Assembly (NCBI GenBank): GCA_017395245.1
Contig: JAFPVR010000121.1
Coordinates: 1 to 50,262, forward strand
DNA from: Bacteroidales bacterium
Lineage (GTDB): Bacteria; Bacteroidota; Bacteroidia; Bacteroidales; WCHB1-69
Direction of reading: 5' to 3'
Length of the DNA: 50,262 nt
A program made the position numbers and the translations under genes. A model generated the notes under the pieces. The model had not been told where the DNA came from. It made no database searches and saw only the letters and a list, made by a program, of their open reading frames with translations. This document shows, in pieces, positions 25,201-30,683 of the stretch. The number at the start of each line of letters is the position of its first letter. The stretch's first letter is position 1.

Positions 25201-26512
25201 GATTATCGACGTGAAGACTGGCGTGGCCCTTTCGTCCGCCAACGTGCCTTACGGTTCGAACCTCTATTTCAAGCACGGCGACAGCATCAAGAAAGGTGCT
25301 TTGATTGCCGACTGGGATCCGTTCAACGCCGTGATTTTGTCCGACGTGGCCGGTAAGGTTCAGTTCAACGATATTATCGAGGGCGTGACCTACCGTGTGG
25401 AGACCGACGAGCAGACCAATATCCACGACAAGGTGATTATCGAGAGTCGTCTAAAGACGAAGAACCCGAGTATCAACATCGTGGACGAGGACGGCGACAT
25501 CATCAAGAGCTTCGACGTGCCTGTGGGTGCCCGTTTGTCCGTGGAGGAAGGCCAGGTCATCGATTCCGGTGAGATTTTAGTCAAGATTCTGCGTTCCTTC
25601 GGTAAGTCTGGCGATATCACGGGCGGTCTGCCGCGCGTGACCGAGCTCTTCGAGGCTCGTAACCCCAGCGATCCCGCCGTGGTGTCCGAAATCGACGGTG
25701 TCGTTTCCTTCGAGAAGAAGCTGAAACGTGGTAACCGTGTGGTGAAGATCACCCCGCGTGTGGATTCCGGCGAGGGCGCGAAGACCTACCTCATCCCGAC
25801 GTCCAAGCAGATCCTGGCTCAGGAGAACGACTTCGTGAAGGCGGGTACGCCGCTGTCCGAAGGCTCCCTGACCCCTGTGGACATCTTGAACATCAAGGGT
25901 GCGCAGAAGGTGCAGGAGTACATCATCAACGAGATTCAGGAGGTGTACCGTCTGCAAGGTGTGAAAATCAACGACAAGCACTTCGAAGTCATTGTGCGTC
26001 AGATGATGCGCAAGATGGAGATCGAGGATCCGGGCGACACCAAGTTCCTGCAAGGCGAGCTCATCAACAAGATCGACTTCCAGGAGGAGAACGACCAGAT
26101 CTGGGACAAGAAGGTTGTCGAAGACGCTGGCGATTCCGATACGGTTCGCAAGGGTCAGATCATCTCCGCCAAGAAACTGCGTGATATCAATTCGATGCTG
26201 AAGCGTAAGGATATGCGCTTGGTGGTGACCCGCGACGCGCGTCCGGCCACCGGTAAGCCGATCCTGCAAGGTATCACCCGCGCTTCTCTGCAGACCCACA
26301 GCTTCATCTCCGCCGCCTCCTTCCAGGAGACCACGAAGGTGCTGACCGAGGCCGCCATCAATGCCAAATCCGACAGCCTGATCGGTATGAAGGAGAACGT
26401 CATTGTGGGCCAGAAGATTCCGGCCGGTACGGGTATCCGCGCCTACCAGAACATCGAGGTCGGCTCCAAGGAGGAGTACGAATCCTTGATGGCGTCGAAA
26501 GAGGACGAATAG
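22226..26512 (+). CDS. rpoC: RNA polymerase beta' subunit
   Basis: 1428 residues. The N-terminal zinc ribbon uses Cys66, Cys68, Cys81 and Cys84 (CHCG...CDRCG). The catalytic NADFDGD motif is at residues 472-478, and its three Asp residues hold the active-site Mg2+. The second zinc site is formed by the Cys in [10 protein letters not shown] and the three Cys in [11 protein letters not shown]. The trigger-loop region reads [17 protein letters not shown]. The C-terminus ends with the usual PAGTGI segment and an acidic tail. Together with rpoB it forms the polymerase cleft. It is the penultimate gene of the operon. Confidence 0.98.
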
Positions 26513-26613
26513 CTTCCTTGAGCAGCCCCGGCAGGGACAAGGGCTCGGTAGTCCCGTACAAGCGACAGCGCAGTGCGGGGTGTAAATAAACAAGTCAAAC
26601 AATTACGACAATT
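26513..26613 (+). other. Structured intercistronic spacer, rpoC to DUF3467 gene
   Basis: About 100 bases with nested complementarity: CCCCG (26526-26530) with CGGGG (26576-26580), and inside it GGGAC (26534-26538) with GTCCC (26551-26555). There is no T run, so it does not look like a terminator. It could be an mRNA processing or stability element. Confidence 0.3.
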
Positions 26614-26919: not shown

Positions 26920-26955
26920 ACGGACTACGTTCAACTTTTTTTATAAATTTTGTGG

Positions 26956-26986
26956 CGGCCGGGGAGCGATTCCCGGCCGTTTTTTT
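26956..26986 (+). terminator. Rho-independent terminator of the secE-rpoC operon
   Basis: CGGCCGGG pairs with CCCGGCCG around a short loop, followed directly by seven T residues. This is the strongest terminator in the window and ends the operon 36 bp after the DUF3467 gene. Confidence 0.9.
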
Positions 26987-27000
26987 AATGTTCGTTTGCT

Positions 27001-27154
27001 TGCCTGCACGGGCGTTGCCGTATGCCTGCACGGGCGTTGCCGTATGCCTGTACAGGCGTTCGCTTATGCGTATATACGTATTCGCTCATGCGTATATACG
27101 TGTTGGCTTATGCGTATATACGTGTTGGCTTATGCGTATATACGTCTTGGCCAA
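27001..27154. repeat. Seven 22-bp tandem repeats with palindromic cores
   Basis: Seven units of exactly 22 bp start at 27001, 27023, 27045, 27067, 27089, 27111 and 27133. All begin TGC. Core positions 2-13 are GCCTGCACGGGC in units 1-2 (imperfect palindrome), GCCTGTACAGGC in unit 3 (perfect), and GCGTATATACGT in units 4-7 (inner 10 bp perfect). The other ten bases are a spacer such as GTTGCCGTA or GTTGGCTTA. A partial eighth core follows at 27155. Unit length is not a multiple of three and has no unique spacers, so it is neither coding nor CRISPR. The last unit contains the TTGG that may serve as the -33 element of the nrnA promoter. Confidence 0.93.
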
Positions 27155-27179
27155 TACGTCAGAAAAATTTGTATCTTTG
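27147..27179 (+). promoter_or_regulatory. Promoter of the nrnA-FKBP operon
   Basis: A perfect -7 element TATCTTTG (27172-27179) lies 21 bp after TTGG (27147-27150), close to the Bacteroidota TTTG/TAnnTTTG pattern. The -33 half is in the final 22-bp repeat. Transcription would start about 27185, leaving a leader of about 15 nt before the TTG start of nrnA. Confidence 0.7.
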
Positions 27180-27199
27180 CCGATTCAAAATCTGAAACG

Positions 27200-28216
27200 T
27201 TGGAAGAACAGCATATACGTAAATTTCAGACCGCGTTGCGTGAGACGAAGTCCATCACCATCGTGTTCCACTTCAATCCCGACGGCGACGCTGTGGGCAG
27301 CGCGCTGGCCCTTTATCATTATTTCAAGGACGACGGTTATACGGTTTCGGTGATTTCACCCAACCCGTTCCCCGATTTCCTGCAGTGGATGCCTGGGACA
27401 GACCATATCATTGTGGCCCAGGAAAACCTCACCGAAGCGCGGAAACGCATCAAGGAGGCGGATATGCTCTTTGTGGTCGATATGAACGCCCCGCATCGCG
27501 CCGGACAGGATTTGCAGAACGCCATTATCAAGTCGTCGGCGTTCAAGGTGCTCATCGACCACCATGTGCAACCCGACATCAAGTGCGATGTGATGTACTC
27601 CACACATCTCACCACCTCGGCTTCGGAGCTTGTTTATAACTTTCTGTACCGGTATCTTACGCCGGACAAGCTGGTTACTCGTGAAATTGCCGAGTGTCTC
27701 TATGTGGGCATTATCACTGATACCGGCTCCATGTCCTACACCTGTGATTACCCGGATTCCTACACCGTGTTGCGCCGTCTTATCGAGGCCGGCGTCAATG
27801 GCGAGGATGTCCATCGGAAGGTTTATGACAACTATACCGAGAGCCGTATGAAACTGCTCGGGCTGGCACTCTCGCAGCGCATGACTGTGCTGCCTGAGTA
27901 CGGGGCTTCCTATATGTATCTGACTAAGAAAGATTTACAGGAAAATGGTTTCCAAATTGGTGATACTGAGGGATTTGTGAATTATGGGCTGTCGATGAAG
28001 ACGGTGCATTACACCGCATTCTTCACCGAACGCGACAACCGTATCCGCGTGTCGTTCCGCTCCAAAGGCATCGTGGATGTGAACCAGTTCGCCCGCAAGT
28101 ATTTTGAAGGAGGCGGCCATGTGAACGCAGCCGGTGCTTTCTATCACGGCACGATGGAGGAAGCGATTGCCCATTTCCTGAACGCGGTTCGCGAGAACGC
28201 CGAGCAACAAAAATAG
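27200..28216 (+). CDS. nrnA: DHH/DHHA1 phosphoesterase, NrnA-like oligoribonuclease/pAp phosphatase
   Basis: 338 residues from a TTG start at 27200. The frame is open further upstream, but that part translates the tandem repeats and the promoter, so it is not coding. There is no in-frame ATG before the first catalytic motif. Motifs: HFNPDGDAVGSALAL (DHH motif I), DMNAPHR, IDHHVQPDI, and TDTGSMSYTC, then a C-terminal DHHA1 domain with GGGHVNAAGAF. NrnA-type enzymes degrade RNA oligonucleotides of a few residues and dephosphorylate 3'-phosphoadenosine 5'-phosphate, using Mn2+. The first FKBP gene starts 3 bp after the stop, so they are surely co-transcribed. Confidence 0.9.
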   Translation: MEEQHIRKFQTALRETKSITIVFHFNPDGDAVGSALALYHYFKDDGYTVSVISPNPFPDFLQWMPGTDHIIVAQENLTEARKRIKEADMLFVVDMNAPHRAGQDLQNAIIKSSAFKVLIDHHVQPDIKCDVMYSTHLTTSASELVYNFLYRYLTPDKLVTREIAECLYVGIITDTGSMSYTCDYPDSYTVLRRLIEAGVNGEDVHRKVYDNYTESRMKLLGLALSQRMTVLPEYGASYMYLTKKDLQENGFQIGDTEGFVNYGLSMKTVHYTAFFTERDNRIRVSFRSKGIVDVNQFARKYFEGGGHVNAAGAFYHGTMEEAIAHFLNAVRENAEQQK

Positions 28217-30579: not shown

Positions 30580-30580
30580 T

Positions 30581-30663
30581 TTGAGACTTGAGACCTGGAA
30601 CTTAAGACTTAAGACTTGGGATTTGAGACATTAAAAGTCTTAAGTCTTAAGTCTAAAGTCTTA
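30581..30663. repeat. Heptamer tandem repeats forming an 18-bp inverted repeat
   Basis: Seven 7-bp units run from 30581 (TTGAGAC, TTGAGAC, CTGGAAC, TTAAGAC, TTAAGAC, TTGGGAT, TTGAGAC). Four reverse-complement-type units (AGTCTTA) follow from 30636. As a result 30600-30617 and 30635-30652 are perfect 18-bp inverted copies with a 17-bp loop. It lies between the last FKBP gene and tex, and may act as a transcription terminator, though no T run follows. Confidence 0.85.
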
Positions 30664-30683
30664 ATTATCGAAATCCTATAAAA

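Follow-up and report, generated by a model that had tools for sequence, protein, structure and literature searches.

The window, by which we denote the whole stretch of 50,262 nucleotides that was analysed, harbors rpoB, rpoC, a DUF3467 gene, a tandem array of short repeat units, an nrnA-like DHH/DHHA1 gene, three FKBP-like genes and tex (Table 1). The first of the FKBP-like genes was run against Pfam and the other two were named by eye. The sequence 3' of the DUF3467 gene is conserved in relatives. Preceded by a terminator-like hairpin and its T run, the array ends 16 bp upstream of the -7 element of nrnA, and the TTG start codon of nrnA lies 44 bp from it, a distance that the ORF caller had mis-measured.

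Table 1. Features of the window around the 22-bp array.
Feature	Position	Strand	Remarks
Terminator-like hairpin	26954..26986	+	12 pairs, followed by a T run; after the DUF3467 gene
Unit 1	27002..27023	+	core GCCTGCACGGGC, spacer GTTGCCGTAT; core not palindromic
Unit 2	27024..27045	+	same sequence as unit 1
Unit 3	27046..27067	+	core GCCTGTACAGGC, a perfect palindrome; spacer GTTCGCTTAT
Unit 4	27068..27089	+	core GCGTATATACGT, palindromic over the inner 10 bp; spacer ATTCGCTCAT
Unit 5	27090..27111	+	core GCGTATATACGT, spacer GTTGGCTTAT
Unit 6	27112..27133	+	core GCGTATATACGT, spacer GTTGGCTTAT
Unit 7	27134..27155	+	core GCGTATATACGT, spacer CTTGGCCAAT; holds the proposed -33 TTGG (27147-27150)
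nrnA -7 element	27172..27179	+	TATCTTTG; kept in relatives without the array
nrnA-like DHH/DHHA1 gene	27200..28216	+	TTG start inferred from conservation

Repeat finders and a position-weight scan both locate seven units with an exact spacing of 22 bp at positions 27002-27155; one of the repeat finders assumed no period, and the position-weight scan of arrays presupposed 22 bp. With a score of 138, compared to at most 13.5 in four base-shuffled windows, the run stands far above chance and confirms the seven exact units which the earlier note had described. Moreover, GCGTATATACG occurs 8 times at one mismatch or fewer, where 0.34 occurrences are expected. Three core types are present, in two, one and four units, respectively. 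The change from unit 3 to units 4-7 consists, as had been claimed, of four base changes forming two symmetric pairs. The description of the cores as palindromic holds in full for unit 3, but T/G and C/A mismatches interrupt the cores of units 1 and 2, and those of units 4-7 have unpaired G/T ends.

The array belongs to a dispersed family. Searches of the source genome with the array and with a general pattern revealed at least 22 arrays; the genome search for the same cores, proposed in the earlier note, thus found similar arrays at no fewer than 21 further places. A strict pattern yielded 11 + 10 matches in this genome (control pattern, 0 + 0), and a pattern allowing three mismatches 55 and 48 (control, 13 and 11). 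Among 40 genomes of the genus, 17 contain at least one strict match each, against a control total of 12, and six genomes are judged to hold true arrays: G000 with 21 matches, G019 with 29, G012 with 11, G016 with 5, and G009 and G020 with 3 each. In the remaining 11, which give one or two matches, no array was found when one locus per genome was scanned. Direct DNA comparison with the window array gave a match in 4 of the 40 genomes. Two pattern searches of 393 genomes of the order, a sample which may or may not include Phocaeicola and Parabacteroides, returned matches in 8 and in 19 genomes, with repeated matches in the source genome alone and one or two in each of the others; a further search scored few candidates per genome, and its negative is weak. 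Since most of the genomes searched lack the element, it is not essential.

For the analysis of unit structure, 48 arrays from six species of the genus were used (21 from the source genome, 14 from G019, 6 from G012, 5 from G016 and one each from G009 and G020), leaving out the C25 array of the source genome and the C6 array of G016. A total of 231 units pass the score cut, comprising 99 distinct cores and 132 distinct spacers. Each unit is composed of a 12-bp near-palindromic core, roughly GNNNNYRNNNNC in the genus, and a conserved 10-bp spacer, and 2 to 10 such units are arranged head to tail. The most conserved stretch is the block C-RTYGGCNNAY-G. The distance of 11 bp between the core centre and the spacer centre is a matter of geometry and no evidence of binding.

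BLAST searches against plasmid records returned matches in isolates of Phocaeicola massiliensis and Parabacteroides distasonis (19, 25 and 16 records per search; 26 distinct). Arrays of 22-bp units with the same layout are present in all 23 of the records that were opened; these 23 of the 26 matched records, with one place each, constitute the second set, from which H30, H31 and H34 were left out. Because the records labelled as plasmids carry housekeeping genes (rpoB in one, ordinary genes in others), we infer that they are chromosome pieces of the two gut isolates and treated them as such. The core of the second set is roughly RCRTAYRTACGT, and its core set differs somewhat from that of the genus. 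The spacer consensus reads RTYGGCNNAY or RTRGSCYNAT, the spacer in P. massiliensis and P. distasonis again being somewhat different from the genus. Of the 23 arrays of these two cultured species, ten have a common leader and are therefore not independent, and thirteen are without it; the leader-sharing arrays lie partly in larger duplicated regions. In P. massiliensis, such regions (L302, L305, L307 and L311, all with the common leader) are found near VirE-like and transposase-like genes, names that were assigned by eye from some translations. A phage origin was rejected, as no viral contig and no phage record matched.

Several repeats of other kinds were met in the same searches. A tandem repeat with a 23-bp period, of the TTGGCNNATTTTT type, is present in 2.8 copies at positions 1498-1562 of L116 (G017:C64) and was also found at G004:C50, G025:C52 and L109 (G018:C88), thus in two families of the order, which makes it a candidate for comparison with the 23-nt repeat of BrickBuilt; most matches to its pattern are isolated, and some lie 23 bp apart in G004, G017 and G025. 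Within the window, positions 26512-26600 in the gap between rpoC and the DUF3467 gene contain another dispersed repeat, with many matches of 38-90 bp in genomes of the genus, and positions 30580-30664, between the third FKBP-like gene and tex, contain a degenerate tandem repeat of 7/14/21 bp (TTGAGAC / ACTTAAG). In the order sample, the reversed control pattern matched G097 17 times, which probably represents another repeat of similar make-up.

The two halves of the genus cores covary. In the 99 distinct cores, 370 of 594 left-right positions match, compared to a mean of 287 and a maximum of 324 in 5000 shuffles of the right halves. When shuffling was confined to single arrays, with each distinct core counted once per array, 589 of 840 positions match (mean 541, maximum 576, 10000 shuffles); since units share ancestry, the shuffles overstate independence. 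In the genus set, the covariation is carried by the pairs 2/11, 3/10 and 5/8, and none was detected by within-array shuffles at 1/12, 4/9 and 6/7. Where neighbouring units differ, complementarity is more frequent within a core than between units: 49/86 versus 32/86 for pair 2/11, 68/122 versus 42/122 for 3/10, and 38/80 versus 24/80 for 5/8. Symmetry is far from complete, however: a perfect core is present in 31 of 231 units, 9 of the 99 distinct cores are perfect, the commonest core, GCGTATATAGGC, contains a G/G pair, and 38 of 221 units possess an asymmetric CA centre.

The second set comprises 101 units and 45 distinct cores, and its 196 matches equal the largest total among 5000 shuffles (mean 175). 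Here the signal is strong at the centre pair, which is complementary in 43 of 45 cores where 22 are expected by shuffle; pair 3/10 is borderline (p 0.056), and none of the other four pairs reaches significance. Of the 101 units, 99 have TA or CG at the centre, even though 49 of 77 neighbouring pairs differ at this position, indicating that centre symmetry belongs to the single core and not to stems between units. The thirteen leader-free arrays behave alike (57 of 59 units), and 18 of the 101 units have perfect cores. Spacer symmetry was considered as well and rejected, as no spacer pair shows significant covariation in either set. The claim that twofold symmetry is maintained is therefore supported at the family level, by covariation above every genus shuffle and, independently, by the centre in two other genera. 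Its original basis, the comparison of units within the window array, is weak, since both core types are already found elsewhere in the family.

The arrays are predominantly extragenic. Of the 48 genus arrays, 43 are situated between called ORFs, 3 at the edge of a contig and 2 inside called ORFs, namely an ORF of 603 amino acids whose called start is just upstream of the array and one of 137 amino acids. The 43 classified arrays occupy 19 convergent, 19 tandem and 5 divergent gaps, compared to 6, 27 and 16 among 49 control gaps of 150 bp or more (convergent, p 0.0009; divergent, p 0.02), a test based on crude gene calls with gap lengths unmatched. Among the 39 genus arrays with a stop-side neighbour, 24 have a stop codon at a distance of 60 bp or less, counting small overlaps; among the 25 with a start-side neighbour, 10 have a start codon that near, or 11 if the TTG of the window is counted. 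The corresponding numbers for the second set are 11/19 and 3/15. According to the deposited annotation of P. distasonis, three of the four opened arrays are located between convergent genes, one of them (L303) 13 and 15 bp from the two stop codons, and the fourth directly follows a stop codon.

Comparison of six orthologous sites revealed unit numbers of 7/5, 5/7, 4/5, 6/3, 5/5 and 4/5, some edge units being degenerate, so that the slippage-like change in unit number which the earlier note had considered is supported between species. At one orthologous site, GAACATATATTC in G019 corresponds to GCGTATATAGGC in G012, with similar spacers and flanks that are alike for about 1.4 kb on both sides. 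Cores may thus be replaced as a block at orthologous sites.

In our preferred reading, to which we assign a probability of about 0.5, the window array belongs to an intergenic element that is dispersed, prone to slippage and read by a putative protein, or else corrected, as duplex DNA with twofold symmetry. The presence of at least 22 arrays in the genome and of the same layout in two other genera points to a genome-wide symmetric element and not to a one-gene switch. Each unit would be recognised by a twofold-symmetric protein, dimeric or oligomeric, which would hold the spacer and require a symmetric, flexible, YR-centred core, and the number of units would shift by slippage or unequal recombination. 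In its action the array might resemble a BIME-like site at transcript ends, affecting the nucleoid or supercoiling. From symmetry to protein is a step that we infer, and against it stands that the analysis identified neither a binding protein nor a partner gene. A more specific version is doubtful: the units could form a 22-bp lattice on which a putative symmetric nucleoid or topology protein reads the near-constant 10-bp spacer together with any roughly symmetric 12-bp core, such that symmetry would be inherited more than sequence and the arrays would mark or insulate transcript ends. The species-specific core sets may be tuned to diverged paralogues of this putative protein.

No earlier description of the array was found in the literature searched, which covered few subscription journals. 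Dimeric proteins bind tandem arrays of operators or iterons in which dyad sites follow one another head to tail at intervals of roughly two helical turns. The arrays described here share this arrangement, but differ in that the core varies between units of one array and that the arrays are scattered over the genome. The per-site twofold symmetry expected of an operator for a dimeric protein is reflected in the covariation above shuffles, yet most cores are imperfect. BIME and REP sequences are frequent at the 3' ends of genes. As these elements are portrayed in two reports (PMC2817692, PMC3733652), the arrays resemble them in being extragenic palindromic DNA in many copies with regular spacing and variable number, and differ in that the 12-bp core has neither a loop nor a long stem-loop. 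The GTAG or CGTC tag of REP/BIME is not a feature of the family; GTAG is frequent at spacer starts in P. massiliensis and P. distasonis, but not in the genus. Y1_Tnp is present in 36 of the 40 genus genomes, most of which are without arrays, and no association with RAYT was found. As a carrier, RAYT was rejected on this ground and because the one Y1 gene analysed near an array has different repeats of its own. This RAYT-like Y1 transposase gene (G000:C70:1604-2051, L201) is situated about 490 bp from the C70 array and has inverted repeats of its own on either side, of the GGGCTTTCAGCCC and CCCAGGG...CCCTGGG types. The C6 array of G016 also lies near a Y1 gene.

The most serious alternative, although unlikely, is a neutral or selfish minisatellite that evolves by slippage and unequal recombination and whose symmetry is restored by template switching in imperfect palindromes, requiring neither a protein nor a function. 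Runs of identical units within arrays, the differing unit numbers at orthologous sites and the patchy presence across genomes agree with it. Furthermore, 18 of 40 left half-sites occur as right half-sites too, and half-swapped units exist, such as GCGTATATTCTC in the C25 array. However, these half-swapped units persist, suggesting that correction would be slow, and the bias towards convergent gaps argues against this alternative. A palindrome-correcting copying error within one core would leave the same marks as those observed in the covariation analysis. We nevertheless rank a symmetric protein somewhat above copying error, given that the YR centre and a spacer of similar sequence are seen again and again in three genera.

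Alternatively, the arrays could act as transcribed RNA, with adjacent cores pairing as 12-bp stems around the spacer as a loop, and serve as a two-way terminator or as a protector of mRNA 3' ends. This possibility, which we regard as rather improbable, would fit the frequent location after stop codons, where arrays fill convergent gaps as at L303 of P. distasonis, and the window array does fold better than its shuffles (RNA z -5.6 and -4.4 for the two strands, DNA z -3.7). Yet inter-unit stems are broken at the centre wherever neighbouring units of the second set differ there; in these units the centre is complementary in 2 of 98 comparisons across units and in 96 of 98 within, the former following from the latter once neighbours differ. 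Neither is there an excess of G-T over A-C mismatches (33 versus 48), an excess that two-way transcription would hide. The window array sits behind a terminator-like hairpin and is not followed by a T run of its own; the combination of a GC-rich hairpin and a U run that defines an intrinsic terminator is not found in it. No Rfam family reached its curated score in L303, L306, L304, L185 or L142, and the window gave sub-threshold matches only; Rfam microRNA families and Prevotella-2 were rejected, as their window matches are far below the curated scores. Inter-unit RNA stems are thus disfavoured by the centre test, which leaves room for a role at transcript ends.

The arrays could also be internal minisatellites of a MITE-like, non-autonomous transposable element. 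The model for such an element is BrickBuilt of Porphyromonas gingivalis, described in its report (PMC4596501) as a minisatellite/MITE with a 23-nt repeat and a limited host range. A single strain carries 19 intergenic copies, strains differ by expansion and contraction, and the unit has conserved as well as variable positions. Judged by that description and not by repeat sequence, the arrays resemble BrickBuilt in belonging to the same order, in their intergenic multi-copy occurrence, in varying repeat number, in near-equal unit length, in being confined to few hosts and in combining constant with variable positions in the unit; they differ in the 22-bp period, the near-palindromic variable core and the more constant spacer. 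The term 'palindrom' is absent from the text of the BrickBuilt paper (PMC4596501). In contrast to the leader and tail of BrickBuilt, a common leader or tail is found in some arrays only: a tail of 68 to 289 bp is common to four arrays of the source genome, and the leader of the P. massiliensis and P. distasonis arrays has been mentioned above. Against this origin, only 8 of 48 arrays have a near flank in common with a second array in their own genome, by the E-value applied, and the leader arrays lie partly within larger duplicated regions. We consider this origin quite improbable as an explanation by itself, but it could coexist with either a protein-read element or a neutral minisatellite. 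The common tail, seen on C50, C31, C3 and C26 of the source genome (L189, L193, L194 and L195), includes a small palindrome, CCCCNNTAGGGG. Overall, dispersal, turnover and location resemble those of REP/BIME and BrickBuilt, whose defining features fail or are unproven here.

The earlier note had proposed that the array controls nrnA. By the -33/-7 consensus, we take TATCTTTG to be the -7 element; the TTGG predicted in the last unit was found 21 bp before it, near the expected -33 position. Alignment of the window with 13 other nrnA loci, however, revealed conservation of the -7 element and the downstream leader and no conserved -33 region. The expectation that the array is kept at this gap in related genomes was contradicted by a weight-matrix scan of 58 other nrnA loci, one per other genome record, none of which carries an array, although three records (L036, L055 and L068) contain fewer than 40 bases upstream of nrnA and thus do not cover the promoter. 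The array-free loci L030, L031 and L032 are from G019, G012 and G009, which bear arrays elsewhere. In the window, the DUF3467 gene and nrnA are about 0.3 kb apart (26920-27200). In the four relatives with both genes on one contig in the same order (G012, G051, G002 and G009; L292-L295), about 3.5-10 kb of other sequence separates them, so that the window array sits where gene order differs, which suggests a deletion or a relocation, the array lying at the DUF3467/nrnA junction. That the array regulates nrnA or acts as its phase-variable promoter element, transcription being tuned by occupancy or by the number of units, is therefore very improbable, given the array-free loci, the -7 element conserved without an array, the at least 21 arrays elsewhere in the genome and the small share of arrays between divergent genes; the window array is probably incidental to nrnA control.

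For annotation, it follows that the arrays are to be treated as a dispersed repeat and not taken as an nrnA promoter switch. If the symmetry arose from copying errors, the arrays would constitute a natural record of template switching. If, on the other hand, it is by their symmetry that a protein recognises the sites, the arrays would reveal a system of gut bacteria that organises the chromosome or acts at transcript ends, and the symmetric reading could be examined in a cultured species, P. distasonis.
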